Shown here one piece after another: positions 8,243-22,106 of a stretch of DNA of 34,941 nt (its first letter is position 1; the number at the start of each line of letters is the position of its first letter). Under the pieces are notes generated by a model. That model made no database searches. It had not been told where the DNA came from and was given only the letters and a program-made list of their open reading frames with translations. This DNA comes from a virus, in the IMG/VR virus record IMGVR_UViG_3300046170_000307, positions 1 through 34,941 of that record; one strand, given 5' to 3'. Made by a program: the position numbers and the translations under genes.

Positions 8243-8545
8243 ATGTACACCTTACAAGATTCTTTACAAGACTCCGAAGATTTTACACAATCCGCCACCC
8301 CCATGATATCTGACAACGGATTTATTCGCTTCGAAGGTGTACGGAAACATTTGCCCATTTCTAACTTCTTTGAAATATACAGAACGCAAACGCTTGTCGC
8401 AAAGCGACAGGCGAACGAGCGCACAAAAGGAAATAATATCCTGCGCATGGAGCAGATCCTAAGACATTACGGAATCGATCCCGCTACGGCAGACATATCC
8501 GCATTTGCTAGTAAAACGGGATCAGGGCATTCCGATCTGCGATGA
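8243..8545 (+). CDS. int: Tyrosine integrase, N-terminal fragment (frameshifted)
   Basis: 100 codons that stop early. The residues resemble the arm-binding/SAM-like N-terminal part of phage integrases (RFEGVRKHLPISNFFEIYRT...). From about 8523 the homologous sequence continues one base later in the third frame (QGIPICDDWVAHRGSNEM, then RQARSLFSKAWIKRYKQLG) until 8652. It then returns in the frame of the catalytic domain from about 8630. Removing one G from the GGG at 8518-8520 and one from the GGG at 8630-8632 gives a single uninterrupted integrase from 8243 to 9213, about 322 residues, a normal length. The gene is therefore broken as read here, either by sequencing error or by real inactivation. 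Confidence 0.7.
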   Translation: MYTLQDSLQDSEDFTQSATPMISDNGFIRFEGVRKHLPISNFFEIYRTQTLVAKRQANERTKGNNILRMEQILRHYGIDPATADISAFASKTGSGHSDLR

Positions 8546-8667
8546 TTGGGTGGCACATCGTGGTTCCAATGAGATGCGTCAGGCACGAAGCCTGTTCAGT
8601 AAGGCGTGGATAAAGCGTTATAAGCAGTTAGGGAATCGACTGCTCATGGTTTAGTAATTGGATCGCA

Positions 8668-9213
8668 TTGAGTTTGGAGGGCGTGCAAGTCACGCCATTT
8701 GATGCGAATCGTAAGGAGTTGGATAAAATCCGCGAGGCATGTGAAGCGCTCAAGGAGTCCGACCCTGCAATGTATTTGATGTACGCTTTGGCGTACGGAT
8801 TAGGTCTTCGTAGTAGTGAAATCCAACGGGCAAGGTTTGATGATCTACACGAAGATTTCGATGGAAATAAACTGATAAGGATACACAGTCCCAAAAGCGG
8901 TGGTGAATACCAGGATCGTCCCTGCGATCCATCGTGGTGGGAACTTATCGCCTCCTTTAAAACATCGAACGATGATTTAATCGTTCCTGTTCAGGAGGAC
9001 CGCATCACGCGCGAGTTTCCATCTTTTCTACGGCGGAAGTGCGGGGTGGTGGATGATCGCCCCGTACACCGCCTGCGAAAGTACTGCGGACACCGGGTGA
9101 TGAGGAAGAATGGGAATAATGCTTTTGTGGCGAGTAAAGCTCTCGGTCACTCAAGCGTGGAAGTTACCTCCCGTGTGTATGTTGGAATGCCTACGATCCA
9201 ACGGAGCTTCTAG
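8668..9213 (+). CDS. int: Tyrosine recombinase (integrase) catalytic domain
   Basis: The frame holds the whole catalytic domain. Counting from the TTG codon at 8668, the residues are Arg48 in GLGLRSSEIQR, Lys76 in the beta hairpin HSPKSGGE, His134 and Arg137 in VHRLRKYCGHRV, His161 in ALGHSSVEVTSR, and the nucleophile Tyr171. All catalytic positions of the family are present. In-frame sequence homologous to the core-binding domain extends upstream to about 8630 (CSWFSNWIALSLEG), so the TTG is not the real start: the true protein begins at 8243 in another frame. The enzyme would integrate the phage at the tRNA-Lys-type attP next door. No excisionase is certain; the HTH protein at 11.3 kb is one candidate. 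Confidence 0.8.
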   Translation: MSLEGVQVTPFDANRKELDKIREACEALKESDPAMYLMYALAYGLGLRSSEIQRARFDDLHEDFDGNKLIRIHSPKSGGEYQDRPCDPSWWELIASFKTSNDDLIVPVQEDRITREFPSFLRRKCGVVDDRPVHRLRKYCGHRVMRKNGNNAFVASKALGHSSVEVTSRVYVGMPTIQRSF

Positions 9214-9688: not shown

Positions 9689-10255
9689 ATGGGATTCTTA
9701 GATAACATAAAAGATGTTCCGCAAAGCTCTTCGAGCGGTGGCGGTAATTACATGAAATTAAAGCAAGGTACGAATCAGTTTCGTATAGTCGGATCTTCCG
9801 ATGATGGTGGAGTAATCCAGGGTATGTTAGGTTGGGGGACTACCGCTGATGGTGGAAGAAAGCCTTATCGTTGGAAGATCGGAGAGAGTGTTCCCGAAGG
9901 CGTAGAGGATAAACCAAAACAATTCCTAGCAATGATTGTATGGAGTTATGACGAAGAAAGAATACAGATTCTTGAGATTCCACAAGTTGGGCTACGAAAA
10001 GAGTTAATCACGCTTGCAAAGGATGAAGAGTGGGGAGATCCGCGTAAGTATGACTTGAAGATTGTTAAAAGCGGTGAGTCAAAAGAAACATCCTATGCGA
10101 TGACTCCATCTCCGCACAAGAAGCGTAGTGATGAGATCAATGCGGCGGTGAAGGAGATGAAGATAAACCTCGAAGCATTATTCACCGGGGATGATCCATT
10201 TGCGGAGCCAACTCCTGAGCCTGAAGATAACGCAAAAGAGGAGGACCCATTCTGA
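9689..10255 (+). CDS. Single-stranded DNA-binding-like protein
   Basis: 188 residues. The N-terminal part (NYMKLKQGTNQFRIVGSS) and the following strands with KPKQFLAMIVWSYDEERIQI resemble the OB-fold phage SSB type. That type begins with a 'L-K-x-G-x-N-x-F-R-I' motif and is followed by a helical linker. The C-terminus is strongly acidic and ends in EEDPF, the classic SSB tail that recruits replication proteins. It heads the plus-strand replication operon and overlaps the next start by one base (TGATG). Role: coating single-stranded DNA during replication and recombination. Assignment rests on motif pattern and context. Confidence 0.65.
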   Translation: MGFLDNIKDVPQSSSSGGGNYMKLKQGTNQFRIVGSSDDGGVIQGMLGWGTTADGGRKPYRWKIGESVPEGVEDKPKQFLAMIVWSYDEERIQILEIPQVGLRKELITLAKDEEWGDPRKYDLKIVKSGESKETSYAMTPSPHKKRSDEINAAVKEMKINLEALFTGDDPFAEPTPEPEDNAKEEDPF

Positions 10256-10551
10256 TGGCGATTAGCGACATAAAAAAGATAGTGGCGGATTACATGGGAA
10301 CTACGGTTGATGAGATTAATTCCCGTAATCGTTTCAAGAATGTGGCACTAGCTCGTCAGATCGCGATGTTCTATTCGCATCTGATGGGTAACACACAGGA
10401 GGAAGTGGCTGAGAAGTTTGATCGAGTCCATACGAATGTGACCCATGCGGTGAAGAAGGTAAAGCAATGGCGGGAATGTGATCATGAGATCCGCGCAATG
10501 CTTGAAGGTATAGAGGCGAAGTATCCTCAACTGAAAGGCTTATCATGCTAA
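10255..10551 (+). CDS. DnaA domain IV-like DNA-binding protein
   Basis: 98 residues with an HTH that matches the C-terminal domain of DnaA. The helices run VDEINSRNRFKNVALARQIAMFYSHLM, then TQEEVAEKFDRVHTNVTHAVKKV, which aligns with the 'ARQIAMYL...IG..FGGRDHTTV.HA..KI' signature. There is no AAA+ ATPase domain; the protein is only the duplex-binding part. The signature Asp-His-Thr is replaced by Val-His-Thr. Standalone domains of this kind occur in phages and may bind the origin or mimic DnaA. It lies between the SSB-like gene and the exonuclease and overlaps both. Confidence 0.75.
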   Translation: MAISDIKKIVADYMGTTVDEINSRNRFKNVALARQIAMFYSHLMGNTQEEVAEKFDRVHTNVTHAVKKVKQWRECDHEIRAMLEGIEAKYPQLKGLSC

Positions 10552-13507: not shown

Positions 13508-13623
13508 TGAACTACATAAAAAGCATGTTCAAACTATTCGCCCAAGGCATGTTATTTGCCATATGTGGGGTCGTATTTTTCACAATTATCATAGGACTTG
13601 TTTGCACAATTTTAGGATTATAA
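13507..13623 (+). CDS. Small single-pass membrane protein
   Basis: 38 residues: a short basic N-terminus (MNYIKSMFK) and one long hydrophobic helix (LLFAICGVVFFTIIIG-like) up to the end. It starts and ends in TAATG overlaps, so it is translated with its neighbours. It could be a superinfection-exclusion or membrane-anchoring peptide. The function cannot be inferred. Confidence 0.55.
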   Translation: MNYIKSMFKLFAQGMLFAICGVVFFTIIIGLVCTILGL

Positions 13624-14108
13624 TGACAGACGAAATACAGAAAAAGACAGAACTGCGCATCAAGGTTCCTCAATGGATAAGTGATCTTTTGAAAGAGCAT
13701 TGTGATCTTTATGGAGTGACCGCAGTTTCCACCATTACTCCACTCCTGGTGGAGTATCTGCGGCATCCCTCGCGCGTGCGCGACAATTGTTCCAATTGTT
13801 TTAATATTAATAATAGCGAAAAATCCGCGATTAGTGGAAAGAAGAAAACAAAAACGAGGGCATCCAAGATACCCTCTAATTTTGATCCTCCCAAAGAGAT
13901 TGCATTGAAGGAAGGACTCAATCACTCGGAAGCGGTTTCCATCTTCGTGGATTGGGCGAAGGGCAAGGGACATGTCCAAGCAGATTGGATTGCCACATAT
14001 CGCAATGCATGCAGGAGATGGATCAAGGATAAGATGCCCCAGGCAAATAACGATCCAATCCTCAAGGAGGTCACAATTCCTGAGTACGAGGACGAGGAAG
14101 AGTTTTGA
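13623..14108 (+). CDS. DnaT/replication-initiation-like protein (possible helicase loader)
   Basis: 161 residues. The N-terminal third (LRIKVPQWISDLLKEHCDLYG) looks like a helical DNA-binding or dimerisation region. A low-complexity Lys-rich linker follows. The C-terminal domain, IPSNFDPPKEIALKEGL then FVDWAKGKGHVQADWIATYRN and CRRWI, matches the DnaT-like/phage replication-protein module ('W...F..WL'). The gene directly precedes and overlaps the DnaB helicase (TGATG), the usual position of a loader. The role is inferred from domain pattern and synteny. Confidence 0.65.
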   Translation: MTDEIQKKTELRIKVPQWISDLLKEHCDLYGVTAVSTITPLLVEYLRHPSRVRDNCSNCFNINNSEKSAISGKKKTKTRASKIPSNFDPPKEIALKEGLNHSEAVSIFVDWAKGKGHVQADWIATYRNACRRWIKDKMPQANNDPILKEVTIPEYEDEEEF

Positions 14109-15367
14109 TGGACTTCCTTGTATCAGAGCAAGCGGTCCTAGCCGCATGTCTTAGGGATGACACAAATCTCTCCACCGCCACAGCGGTTGAGCGTTTAACG
14201 GAGGATGACTTCACCTCGCCCGCGCACCAAGCGATATTCCGTTTGATCGCACAGCGATCCGAGTTGAATGAGGTGGATGTGGCGATTGAGCTACCTGAGT
14301 ATTCCTCGGAAGCTCTAGAACTTGCGGAGAAGTATGGCGGTGGACAGGTGGAGAGATATGTGGATCAATTGGTGGAGTCGAGGAACAGACGCGAAGTGGA
14401 ACGAGCGCTCATGGTATCCACGGATATGCTCAAGGAGGGTAAACAATCAGATGAGATTGCCTCCGAGTTCAATCTCAGGGTAGCCAAAGCATTAGCATCA
14501 GGGAAGGGACAGGTAAAAGTGGGACCCGCCACCAAGGAAGCACATTCTGAGTTTCTTTCCATAGATGCGGGAGAATCATCCGCAGTAAGCACAGGATTCA
14601 AACGATTGGATTTTTGCCTAAGCGGAGGATTCCAACCGGGAAAGCTTTATGTCCTAGCCGCAAGGCCTGGGGTAGGGAAGTCAGGACTCGCATTGCATTT
14701 CTCTCATGAGATTGCCAAGAGGGGATACCGTGCAAGCTACGCATCCCTGGAGATGAGTGCTTCGGAATGCTCCGGGCGGTTACTCTCCCGCGAGAGCGGG
14801 GTTGCCCGCCCACGCATGAAAGGAGATCTTCTCCCCGCACATCGTAAGAAGCTAGAGGATGCCACAAAGAGGATGCAGGGATGGCCCATCACCTTCAAGG
14901 ATGACAACAAGGCCACGCTTGATTCCATCCGCGCCTTTCTCGCCCAGGAGCGAGTAAAAGGAGATGTGGGGTTGGCGGTGATTGATTATTTGCAATTAGT
15001 CTCCGCTCCAGGATACGAATCCCGCGTGCAGGAGATCACCGCCATTTCTCGCAGTCTCAAGCAGATCAGTATGGAGCTACAGATTCCCGTCCTCGCCCTT
15101 TCGCAATTATCAAGACAGTGCGAGATCAATAACAGAAAGCCAATGCTCTCCGATCTGAGAGACTCCGGGAGTATCGAGCAGGATGCGGATTGCGTGTTTC
15201 TCCTATCAGTTGAGGACAAGGTGGATGAAACCAAGGATCGCATCAATTGCCATATCGCCAAGAATCGCGGTGGAGAGACGGATCTCATGGTCACGCTTGG
15301 TTTTGAGAAGAGTACGGGCAATTGGAGTACAAGCTTAGGTGAAAAGAAAGAAACAAAGGCTTGGTAG
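14108..15367 (+). CDS. dnaB: Replicative DNA helicase, DnaB family
   Basis: 419 residues. The N-terminal helical domain (SEQAVLAACLRDD) is followed by a linker and the RecA-like ATPase core. Walker A is ARPGVGKS at residues 185-192. The GYRASYASLEM strand follows, and Walker B is VIDYLQLV at about 291-298. Then come the Gln/Arg-finger region (LSQLSRQCE) and the typical MLSDLRDSGSIEQDAD motif. It unwinds DNA 5' to 3' at the phage fork. It is the last gene of the early operon, with a hairpin terminator 16 bases downstream. The ATG is chosen because it overlaps the preceding stop. No primase or polymerase gene accompanies it. Confidence 0.92.
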   Translation: MDFLVSEQAVLAACLRDDTNLSTATAVERLTEDDFTSPAHQAIFRLIAQRSELNEVDVAIELPEYSSEALELAEKYGGGQVERYVDQLVESRNRREVERALMVSTDMLKEGKQSDEIASEFNLRVAKALASGKGQVKVGPATKEAHSEFLSIDAGESSAVSTGFKRLDFCLSGGFQPGKLYVLAARPGVGKSGLALHFSHEIAKRGYRASYASLEMSASECSGRLLSRESGVARPRMKGDLLPAHRKKLEDATKRMQGWPITFKDDNKATLDSIRAFLAQERVKGDVGLAVIDYLQLVSAPGYESRVQEITAISRSLKQISMELQIPVLALSQLSRQCEINNRKPMLSDLRDSGSIEQDADCVFLLSVEDKVDETKDRINCHIAKNRGGETDLMVTLGFEKSTGNWSTSLGEKKETKAW

Positions 15368-17675: not shown

Positions 17676-17682
17676 GCTTCCA

Positions 17683-17739
17683 TCTATAAACTACAGATAG
17701 CAACAATGTCAAACAGATAAAACAGATATTTGTATCTGT
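17683..17739 (-). promoter_or_regulatory. Promoter of minus-strand operon with ACAGATA operator cluster
   Basis: On the minus strand, TTGACA (17707-17712) and TATAGA (17683-17688) are 18 bases apart, eight bases before the GP88-like start. Around it, ACAGATA occurs at 17693, 17713 and 17722, and its complement at 17733. The last two form a perfect palindrome ACAGATA-TTTG-TATCTGT. This looks like a repressor-controlled promoter. Confidence 0.55.
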
Positions 17740-17911
17740 AGGTATACACTATAGAAACACGCTTCCTTACTACGCGGGCCACCGGGCCGGTTCCCGGCCA
17801 TATGGCCACCGGTTAAAACGAATACCAGGACCAAGCGCGGGAACCGGGGAAAGAGGGAAAGAGGGAACCCTGGAAACCGGGGAAAGCGATTGACGCAAAT
17901 CAACAGATTCA

Positions 17912-17966
17912 ATGCAAAGGTGACGCAAAGGTGATGCAGAGGTGACGCAAATGTGATACAAATGTG
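17912..17966 (+). repeat. Five 11-bp tandem iterons
   Basis: Units at 17912, 17923, 17934, 17945 and 17956 follow the consensus AYGCAAAKGTG (ATGCAAAGGTG, ACGCAAAGGTG, ATGCAGAGGTG, ACGCAAATGTG, ATACAAATGTG), in exact 11-bp phase. A partial sixth unit (ATGCA) follows. The phase of one helical turn would place bound proteins on one DNA face, as in iteron origins. Confidence 0.75.
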
Positions 17967-17998
17967 ATGCATTTCTTCCCCCTTCAAAGAATTTGCTA

Positions 17999-18212
17999 TA
18001 CATGTGTAAAGCAGATTGTGAAGCAACGCACAAAGGGTAGATACAACGCGATTATCCGAGCCATGAATCCGCAAGAATCCGCTTAAATACTAGCATTTCT
18101 TGTGTTAAACCTGGCGTGCAATTGCGTAAAGTGCTGATAGTCAACGCTATCGTATAGCATGTGACTTAGAATCACATGCTTTACCGCTTTGCATTACATA
18201 TGTAAAGCAGAT
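17999..18212 (+). repeat. 18-bp direct repeat pair
   Basis: TACATGTGTAAAGCAGAT (17999-18016) and TACATATGTAAAGCAGAT (18195-18212) differ at one base. They bracket the hairpin pair and the segment after the iterons. Confidence 0.6.
18136..18180. repeat. Two adjacent hairpin-forming inverted repeats
   Basis: GATAG/CTATC with a 6-nt loop (18136-18151) is followed, 4 bases on, by AGCATGTGA/TCACATGCT with a 7-nt loop (18156-18180). The second is a perfect 9-bp stem. No T run follows, so cruciform or operator use is more likely than termination. Confidence 0.6.
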
Positions 18213-18216
18213 CACA

Positions 18217-18229
18217 GGGGGGGAGGGGG
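18217..18229. other. G7AG5 tract
   Basis: GGGGGGGAGGGGG follows the second 18-bp repeat by four bases. It might stall polymerase or form a quadruplex with other G runs; it is also a likely sequencing trouble spot. Confidence 0.4.
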
Positions 18230-18286
18230 TCCGGCGCTCGTCCGCGCTAATTCTGTATTATCATCACCACCCCGCATAATTTTTTC

Positions 18287-18340
18287 GCCATACGGTTTCC
18301 CCGCAATCCCGCATCCCCTGCCATACGGTTTTCCCCGCAA
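18287..18340. repeat. 20-bp direct repeat pair
   Basis: GCCATACGGTTTCCCCGCAA (18287-18306) recurs with one extra T at 18320-18340, a 33-bp period. It sits downstream of the minus-strand nuclease gene. It may be a protein-binding site or a recombination remnant. Confidence 0.55.
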
Positions 18341-18445
18341 CTCGCACCATTTGCGCTATCCCCTCACATCAAGCGTTATTCCTCGCCCCTATACGCGGAT
18401 CGGTTCCCGATCATCCGCATTGTACGAAATGCTGTGCAAGTGGTT

Positions 18446-18865
18446 CTACGGGGTTTTAAAGAGATCCCACGCCTCGCGGTACTTTTCGTGCTTTGCCTTG
18501 GAGAGTGGGTTATGAGCGTAGAGGGATATGCGCAGGGCCTGGTTTAGTTCGAGGCATGGTATTATGTACCAAGTGGGTATAGCTTCGACATAAGCGGCGA
18601 GTATATCGACTTTCGTGCAATCTATGGTCATTTTCTTGGCAGTACCTGATGCGGTGGTGACCATATATCTGCCTTGTCCGCCATTTGCTTTATCGAATAC
18701 TTTATCCTTAGTGCCTTTGATTTGTACTTTGAATACTTTGCCCGCTTGGTTCATGACGAGGCAATCCTGAGGTAGGTAATCGCCCAGGGGGGTAAATACT
18801 TCGAGATTACGGGCTAGTGCTTCCGTGAAGAATGTTTGTTCGTAGAGGGAGCCTCTACGCTTCAT
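18446..18865 (-). CDS. PD-(D/E)XK endonuclease-like protein
   Basis: 139 residues. The N-terminal helix with Glu9 (SLYEQTFFTEALARN), then VFTPLGDYLPQDCLV (Asp34) and KVFKVQIKGTKD (Gln48, Lys50) follow the E...D...(E/Q)xK layout of small Holliday-resolvase-like PD-(D/E)XK enzymes. The rest is alpha/beta and Trp/Tyr-rich. It overlaps the upstream minus-strand gene by 11 bases. Role could be DNA processing near the origin next door, or defence or homing. A homing role is less likely, since no intron is seen. Family assignment is by motif. Confidence 0.6.
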   Translation of the reverse strand: MKRRGSLYEQTFFTEALARNLEVFTPLGDYLPQDCLVMNQAGKVFKVQIKGTKDKVFDKANGGQGRYMVTTASGTAKKMTIDCTKVDILAAYVEAIPTWYIIPCLELNQALRISLYAHNPLSKAKHEKYREAWDLFKTP

Positions 18866-19433: not shown

Positions 19434-19877
19434 ATGGATACGGAACGGGCGGGAAAGATATTGGAGAGGCATGGTCTTACGAAGAAGGCATTTGCTGACA
19501 TGATGGGGGTGAAGGCGAGTACTGCGAGGATGGCGTTCAGTCTGAAGAGGTTCAGCAAGAAGATGGTGGCTAAATTGGAGGAGTTGGAGGAGGAGTTGAA
19601 TATTCAGCGTGATTTAGCGGAAGTGGATGAGATGATAGATGAGGCCCAGGAAAAGAGGGTAAGTATTATTGAGGGTGTGGTGAGGCAGAGTACGGGGAAT
19701 GCTTTGGTGCAGGATGCGAAGGTATACGGGGTGCCTAAGAATAGATTTATTAGATTGATAGAATTTGCGGATGGTAGTCATGGGAAGTTTAGGAGCAAAC
19801 CGGGCAAGTATTTGAAGTTGGGGGAGAGCGTGAAGGTGAAGCATTTGGACAGGGATATGTGGGAAGTGGTTAGGTAG
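19434..19877 (+). CDS. HTH regulator with C-terminal beta domain
   Basis: 147 residues. The N-terminal HTH (ILERHGLTKKAFADMMGVKA, then TARMAFSLKRFSKKMVAKLEELEEEL) is XRE-like. A Glu-rich coil follows, then a C-terminal domain (YGVPKNRFIRLIEFADGSHG, then KYLKLGESVKVKHLDRD) of short beta strands. The C-terminal part resembles an OB or tudor-like fold and may bind DNA or a partner. It is the first gene of the operon and could repress its own promoter. Its stop abuts the methyltransferase start. Confidence 0.7.
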   Translation: MDTERAGKILERHGLTKKAFADMMGVKASTARMAFSLKRFSKKMVAKLEELEEELNIQRDLAEVDEMIDEAQEKRVSIIEGVVRQSTGNALVQDAKVYGVPKNRFIRLIEFADGSHGKFRSKPGKYLKLGESVKVKHLDRDMWEVVR

Positions 19878-21674: not shown

Positions 21675-22106
21675 ATGAGAAAGAGGTACGAGACACAGCA
21701 GGACCTCGATAATGAGAAGGAGGTATGTGGATTTTTGAGCAAGGTATGGGACTGCGTATTTCATAAGCTCAATCCTATTAAGTACAAGGTGGACTTCCTC
21801 ATTGAGAAGGGTGACCACTACGGATGGGCGGAGTTAAAGTGTTTAAATATTAACTATGGGCAGTATCCGTTCATGATTTCGTACAAGAAGATCGAGGCGG
21901 CCAAGCAGTTATTTGAGACGAGCGGTAAGAAGTTTACTCTGATTTTCAGATGCAAGGATGCATTATGTTTTCATACATGGGATTTTAACAGGGACTATAA
22001 GTTTGAGTTGGGAGGCAGGACGCGAGCAACCCGCGATCCACAGGATATAGAACCCATTTTCCGCATAGATCCAAAGGATTGCACGATAGTGGAGGGGTAT
22101 GTATGA
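21675..22106 (+). CDS. PD-(D/E)XK-like nuclease or small unknown phage enzyme
   Basis: 143 residues. YKVDFLIEKGDHYGWAELKC (Asp40, Glu53, Lys55) has the D...ExK spacing of a PD-(D/E)XK core, preceded by a helix with Glu14 or Glu16. A following helix with SYKKIEAAKQLFETSG is also typical of that fold. It is the second nuclease-like gene of the genome and lies just upstream of terminase. It might help packaging or DNA turnover. The match is by core motif only, and catalysis is unproved. Confidence 0.5.
   Translation: MRKRYETQQDLDNEKEVCGFLSKVWDCVFHKLNPIKYKVDFLIEKGDHYGWAELKCLNINYGQYPFMISYKKIEAAKQLFETSGKKFTLIFRCKDALCFHTWDFNRDYKFELGGRTRATRDPQDIEPIFRIDPKDCTIVEGYV

Follow-up and report, generated by a model that had tools for sequence, protein, structure and literature searches.

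What task is served by five short direct repeats, set head to tail in the longest gene-free stretch of an uncultured phage genome, is the question raised by the locus described here. An initial annotation, made from this one genome, read them as the iterons of a replication origin or as a cooperative operator. We have approached the question through the repeats themselves, the non-coding region around them, the same region in related contigs and the proteins which might bind there.

The phage genome and its relatives

The window, i.e. the whole 34,941-bp stretch of DNA analysed, is an IMG/VR virus record with a podovirus-like genome. Its two ends meet within one uninterrupted tail-protein reading frame (34941/1), and the 34,941 bp therefore map as one complete circle. 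The record has no end repeats marking it as circular. Genes present in the window include those for TerL, portal (assigned by position and size), capsid, SSB, DnaA domain IV, exonuclease VIII, DnaB and integrase. There are also two PD-(D/E)XK nuclease-like genes, PDDEXK_5 at 18446-18865, which adjoins the control region discussed below, and PDDEXK_14 at 21675-22106.

Relatives were collected via TerL, gp88 and the most conserved DNA block of the control region. Many metagenomic viral contigs carry close TerL relatives and a close TerL is also found on contigs of two MAGs, both assigned to the Verrucomicrobiota, which is probably the host group of this phage family. The annotated phage genomes searched contained no relatives of the DNA region, of gp88 or of the candidate initiator, the sole match in that collection being one remote TerL, and a provirus search by TerL returned two remote matches of ~30% identity, both of them without the control region. 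A G-run in L202 was considered as a trace of the region and dismissed, since it sits within a coding stretch. Near-complete contigs of relatives break at differing places and contig ends are scattered over the map, with no evidence for fixed physical ends at the region.

An 11-bp array in the largest non-coding gap

The array lies in an intergenic gap of 770 bp, compared to 314 bp for the next largest, and the long non-coding setting given in the initial annotation is thus confirmed as the longest gap of the genome. Its five units are ATGCAAAGGTG, ACGCAAAGGTG, ATGCAGAGGTG, ACGCAAATGTG and ATACAAATGTG, starting at 17912, 17923, 17934, 17945 and 17956; they follow one another head to tail at exactly 11 bp without indels, have the consensus AYRCARAKGTG, and are directly followed at 17967 by a degenerate sixth unit, ATGCATTTCTT. 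TRF reports 17912-17971 at period 11 with a score of 78, the top score in the window, and no second cluster of the 11-bp unit was found elsewhere in the window. The self-match of the array at period 11 is 37/44. Among 2000 dinucleotide-shuffled versions of the gap the best value was 26 at this period and 28 when all periods between 5 and 24 were allowed; among 100 shuffled genomes, at periods 8-13, it was 30. That the five-unit array exceeds chance is well supported, TRF and the shuffles agreeing on the strictly spaced units first proposed for 17912-17966. The unit as then written, AYGCAAAKGTG, is exact in three of the five, whereas units 3 and 5 are each one base off.

Table 1. Features of the control region and of the replication genes discussed in the text, with the basis on which each was recognised.
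Feature	Position	Strand	Basis
Entire non-coding control region, flanked by the gp88-like and PD-(D/E)XK genes	17676-18445		largest gap
Nested hairpin, inner N6-TTC-N6 (17785-17799), outer GGCC/GGCC	17777-17807		compensatory changes
T-poor spacer with purine-rich direct repeats, to the left of the array	17839-17886	+	repeat family D2
Conserved ATTGACGCAAATCAACAGA holding an AYGCAAA half-site	17889-17907	+	alignment
Five-unit 11-bp array (7-bp core AYRCARA plus 4 bases)	17912-17966	+	tandem-repeat and shuffle tests
Invariant anchor ATGCATTTC, degenerate last unit, sets the 11-bp register	17967-17975	+	alignment
Palindrome TGCTATACATGTGTAAAGCA	17994-18013		position taken by other palindromes in relatives
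Symmetric core AGCATGTGA-CTTAGAA-TCACATGCT (9-7-9, 25 bp)	18156-18180		alignment
Second copy of the 17994 palindrome	18188-18209		repeat family D5
G-run GGGGGGGAGGGGG	18217-18229	+	GGGGGGG[AC]GGGGG in nearly all relatives
Most conserved block TAATTCTGTATTATCATCACCACCCCGCATAATTTTTTCGCC, near-invariant	18248-18289	+	alignments of relatives
Second TTC-loop hairpin GATCGG-TTC-CCGATC	18398-18412		repeat search, alignment
Single-strand DNA-binding protein	9689-10255	+	phrog_1607 6.9e-08, phrog_1192 8.8e-08
Stand-alone DnaA domain IV protein, candidate binder of the initial annotation	10255-10551	+	PF08299 3.8e-18
Predicted initiator, N-terminal ribbon-helix-helix and C-terminal DnaT-like domain	13623-14108	+	alignment, model, profiles
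DnaB-like replicative helicase	14105-15367	+	PF03796 8.5e-65
Helix-turn-helix regulator, second candidate of the initial annotation	19434-19877	+	phrog_4779 1.1e-07, HTH_3 0.0017

Conserved elements of the control region

The control region is kept in ~50 related metagenomic viral contigs, in which its layout recurs. A TTC-loop nested hairpin, a T-poor spacer, ATGCATTTC (or ATTCATTTC), a palindrome and conserved stretches are followed by the symmetric 25-bp core, the G-run, the TCTGTATTATCATCACC... block and, in some relatives, the second hairpin. Common to the relatives are the block TCTGTATTATCATCACCACCCCGCATAATTTTTTCGCC and, alongside it, the invariant anchor just right of the array, which is identical in 19 of 19 aligned sequences and takes the form ATTCATTTC in a more distant group. 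The G-run together with the TCTGTATTATCATCACC...AATTTTTTCGC block, at 18217-18289, is the most conserved non-coding sequence of the phage family.

Pairing in the inner stem of the nested hairpin is retained through about eight different stem sequences, and the outer GGCC tetramers are jointly replaced by GATC on both sides in some relatives. At the position of the first palindrome, the unrelated palindromes TGCTATACATGTGTAAAGCA, TTGCAAGTTACTTGCAA and ATCAACATATCATGATGCGTTGAT swap among relatives, as if fold or symmetry were kept there and not sequence. Averaged over the relatives, the left 110 nt contain 15% T. The purine-rich repeat upstream of the array (17839-17886) and the direct repeats and hairpins downstream of it, which had been part of the initial description, were all found.

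Array and phase across relatives

Between one and five units are present in 13 of 40 non-redundant sequences, the window included, and the array is absent in the other 27. Four units occur in L154 and L032, three in L112, L115 and L095, two in L014 and L149, and a single one in five other sequences. The close relatives L002, L004 and L005 have no array and retain the anchor with one AYGCAAA ~20 bp before it, the distance between this half-site and the anchor peaking at 19-20 bp in array-less relatives. As it can be absent, the array is optional relative to the anchor, and it cannot be essential, because L004 and L005 have none while possessing an identical ribbon-helix-helix domain in the protein considered below.

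Where units are present in relatives, they always stand in exact 11-bp steps from the anchor. Counting cores at 11, 22, 33 or 44 bp from the anchor, with the window and L095 left out, gave 26 matches. The 5000 shuffles averaged 0.95 and never exceeded 6, and other periods from 6 to 17 gave seven matches or fewer. The 24 ATGC-type units have A, T, G, C, A/G, A/G and A at positions 1-7, with few exceptions, and are variable at positions 8-11, giving a unit core of ATGCRRA (7 bp) followed by four free bases. Such a 7-bp core and 4-bp spacer, repeated one turn apart, look like phased protein-binding sites lying side by side. In L158, a remote relative on the same contig as L050, ~five 9-bp units, GTTTAGAGR, occupy the same place as the 11-bp array, at ~2790-2840 and just left of ATTCATTTC, which counts against the explanation favoured below. 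The earlier description of an iteron or cooperative-site make-up thus holds for the 11-bp phase, which is kept in relatives as cooperative binding of a protein would predict, but the array is no constant, essential element of an origin.

The repeats might instead have expanded in tandem as a neutral change, within a T-poor spacer that is under no constraint, and to this we assign a minor though real share of the probability. It would account for the sharp copy-number differences between close relatives and for the further short repeats in the same spacer (8-bp GGGAAAGA and 9-bp GTTTAGAGR), and slippage holds register unaided. However, in both L032 and L154 the last four bases of the unit change from one unit to the next inside a single genome while positions 1-7 stay constant, and distant relatives with different units show the same 11-bp phase and core. 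Neutral decay or slippage alone would not spare seven positions, which disfavours this explanation.

The symmetric core and the integrase

The 25-bp symmetric core is a possible tyrosine-recombinase core site, or attP core. Its 7-nt centre differs between phages, the outer AGC and the inner GA/TC being mostly kept; its arms are not always fully complementary among relatives, and it resembles a tRNA anticodon arm. The phage encodes a site-specific recombinase (PF00589, 4.5e-09). In the window this integrase gene (8243-9213) is frame-disrupted into an N-terminal part, 8243-8545, and a catalytic part, 8668-9213, and it forms one open frame of ~319 aa in L083, L086, L090, L138 and L102.

The whole control region could accordingly be read as an attP, the 25-bp core serving as the core site of the integrase and the 11-bp repeats as arm-type or accessory sites, a reading with a small chance of being right. 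The 9-bp arms around a phage-variable 7-bp centre and the anticodon-arm likeness argue for it, as do the presence of a tyrosine integrase in all relatives seen to cover the integrase locus and the termination of four relatives' contigs (L015, L087, L068 and L065) at or near the core. Against it, the window's core has no tRNA or chromosomal match in 177 genomes of the MAG host's order, a weak test given the uncertain host, and no close relative was found in integrated form. The integrase gene is moreover 9 kb away, its intact ~319-aa form has no obvious arm-binding domain, and the array is at least about 190 bp from the core. A single core match in the 177 genomes was considered as an attB and rejected, as it lies in a sequence in which no tRNA was found. 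The core may yet be an attP in a region which is otherwise an origin, and this would be compatible with the explanation we favour.

Candidate binding proteins

The initial annotation named the DnaA domain IV protein (10255) and the helix-turn-helix regulator (19434) as binders of the repeats. Neither gained specific support; a search allowing one mismatch located no DnaA box in 17676-18445, and over the genome as a whole such boxes are about as frequent as chance predicts. The replication genes on which that proposal drew are present, namely those for the DnaA-domain-IV protein and DnaB (Table 1), and no polymerase was matched among the proteins scanned, all large ones included.

The most likely initiator is the protein predicted from the gene directly upstream of dnaB, ~4 kb from the array. 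An 18-member alignment of its family has a ribbon-helix-helix pattern, the N-terminus, TELRIKVPQWISDLLKEHCDLYGVTAVSTITPLLVEYL, being strand-helix-helix and the C-terminal domain of DnaT type. AlphaFold models two helices behind a strand segment (pLDDT ~80-87) and a separate C-terminal helical domain (pLDDT ~88-92). In a PDB fold search with this model the top four matches were Arc and CopG, at E-values above 0.7, and further ribbon-helix-helix proteins were among the lower matches, also with weak E-values. The primosomal protein phrog_3992 is matched by 13 of the 18 family members (best 3e-07) and a replication initiation family by 11, while five match plasmid copy-control RepB (PF10723) weakly (best 0.0014). 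No known Rep-family initiator is encoded beside the repeats, where the neighbours are GP88 and PDDEXK_5, nor is the 13623-14108 protein itself a known Rep.

Binding to direct repeats is known for ribbon-helix-helix proteins. The ribbon-helix-helix protein ParR of plasmid R1 requires at least two 11-bp direct repeats (PMC9426499). The domains predicted for the phage protein fit both the binding of such sites and the loading of a helicase. Across relatives the strand of its ribbon-helix-helix domain goes with the class of repeat, VE[LIV]RLK-type strands with ATTCATTTC and TELRIKVPQW with ATGCATTTC; this apparent covariation of binding domain and repeat is suggestive only, being confounded with descent.

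The binding of 11-bp direct repeats by R1 ParR (PMC9426499), the ribbon-helix-helix domain predicted at the N-terminus of the 13623-14108 protein and a genome which maps as a circle would also suit a partition site, in which the array is a centromere-like, parC-type element. We regard this as improbable. None of the proteins scanned was a ParM, TubZ or ParA; the ribbon-helix-helix domain forms one protein with a DnaT-like domain, encoded next to dnaB; and close relatives can do without the array.

A putative replication origin

We consider it an even chance that 17676-18445 is the replication origin of this phage and that the array supplies optional phased sites, which an initiator would bind. 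Origin-like traits of the region are that it is the largest gap, contains no gene, holds structured elements and is kept in the relatives covering it. To the right of the region lie two minus-strand genes whose third positions, read on the plus strand, are G- and T-rich (GC3 skew +0.38 and +0.44), against -0.07 in the minus-strand gene to the left; in relatives of <85% identity the corresponding values are +0.29 and +0.30 on the right and +0.06 on the left. Skew right of the region fits rightward leading-strand synthesis, and gene-specific codon use could also cause it. We infer both the start of replication at this region and its direction. Between 3.8 and 15 kb the plus-strand skew turns positive once more, which does not fit a simple bidirectional origin. 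A skew check at 17.9 kb, suggested with the initial annotation, thus returns a strand-composition switch across the region but no simple two-arm pattern genome-wide.

The array has the tandem direct repeats at constant helical spacing which characterise iteron origins. No AT-rich unwinding segment adjoins it, the AT content around the array being 0.50-0.65 compared to a genome mean of 0.54, and an AT-rich stretch (0.69) lies ~150 bp away at 17685-17765. Lacking DnaA boxes and an AT-rich segment next to the array, the region falls short of the full classical definition of an iteron origin. The conserved structured gap, the switch in strand composition and the kept phase nevertheless agree with the origin first proposed, and that interpretation is partly supported: it was right in direction, with the provisos that a different protein is the likelier binder and that the array plays a lesser part.

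In the mechanism we propose, the initiator would be the ribbon-helix-helix/DnaT-like fusion, whose gene immediately precedes dnaB. It would bind the invariant ATGCATTTC (17967) plus nearby AYGCAAA half-sites and, where extra 7-bp cores are available, would spread leftward over them, every 11 bp and along one helix face, into a larger complex. The phage would next load its own DnaB, and the host polymerase would be recruited. Whether this represents a new type of phage initiator, in which a ribbon-helix-helix domain sits on phased 7-bp sites, a DnaT-like domain hands over DnaB and origins tune their strength through gain and loss of 11-bp sites in register with an invariant anchor, is a more tentative matter, and we regard it as possible though doubtful.

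Rightward leading-strand synthesis would also be consistent with priming by RNA, in which a promoter near 17745 directs a long structured transcript that forms an RNA-DNA hybrid at the G-run, as in ColE1. Folding of the plus-strand RNA is more stable than that of shuffled sequences (z -5.1), and the purine-rich spacer is followed ~500 nt downstream by the G-run and the conserved block. Covariation is nearly absent from the anchor to the conserved block, however (covariation term -0.52, 2 pairs), and none supporting one consensus RNA fold was found; variants of hairpin 1 pair without G-U, as fits a DNA structure, and there is neither an Rfam match above cut-off nor a convincing promoter, leaving this route quite improbable. 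A cooperative operator was the other reading offered initially; as a control site of the leftward gp88 operon it is scarcely credible: the array is in the gp88 5' region and the phage encodes regulators, but gp88 starts ~240 bp left of the array, 480 bp without a gene follow it, the next ~1.5 kb holds no rightward gene, and relatives whose genes are arranged identically have no array.

Comparison with known systems

Iteron-type origins are known from phages, as in the ori and O protein of lambda. With the iteron origins of plasmids and phages the putative origin shares direct repeats in a large non-coding region and a replication module that the phage encodes itself, in which a DnaB-type helicase but no polymerase was found. 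It differs in an array whose copy number runs from 0 to 5 among relatives, in having no adjoining AT-rich segment, and in a candidate initiator which is a ribbon-helix-helix/DnaT-like fusion encoded 4 kb off. Repeat units of quite another kind are seen in the iterons of PLE RepA, which are semi-palindromes of ~30 bp (PMC8263062).

On chromosome II of Vibrio cholerae, the initiator RctB likewise binds short 11/12-mer direct repeats set about one helical turn apart; the 12-mers are mentioned in PMC5395669. Unlike there, no RctB-like protein was found in the phage and the unit is no GATC-bearing 12-mer. Similarly, parC/ParR of plasmid R1 combines 11-bp direct repeats with a ribbon-helix-helix protein (PMC9426499), of the kind predicted in this phage, whereas no partition motor was found here, the candidate protein carries a DnaT-like domain, and the recognised part of the unit looks like 7 bp plus four free bases. 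Phage attP regions likewise pair a symmetric core, variable over its central 7 bp, with direct repeats nearby, and the difference here is that no chromosomal partner was found and the integrase gene is distant.

Meaning for the phage family

If the proposed origin is correct, it would mark the origin of a whole uncultured phage family, probably one infecting Verrucomicrobiota, for whose members the phage genome collection searched contains no close relative. It would also provide a candidate initiator that is poorly captured by any one family model. Those relatives that share the anchor and a nearly identical initiator, and differ in carrying from none to five units, would then offer a natural series in which the number of phased sites may be related to origin strength.
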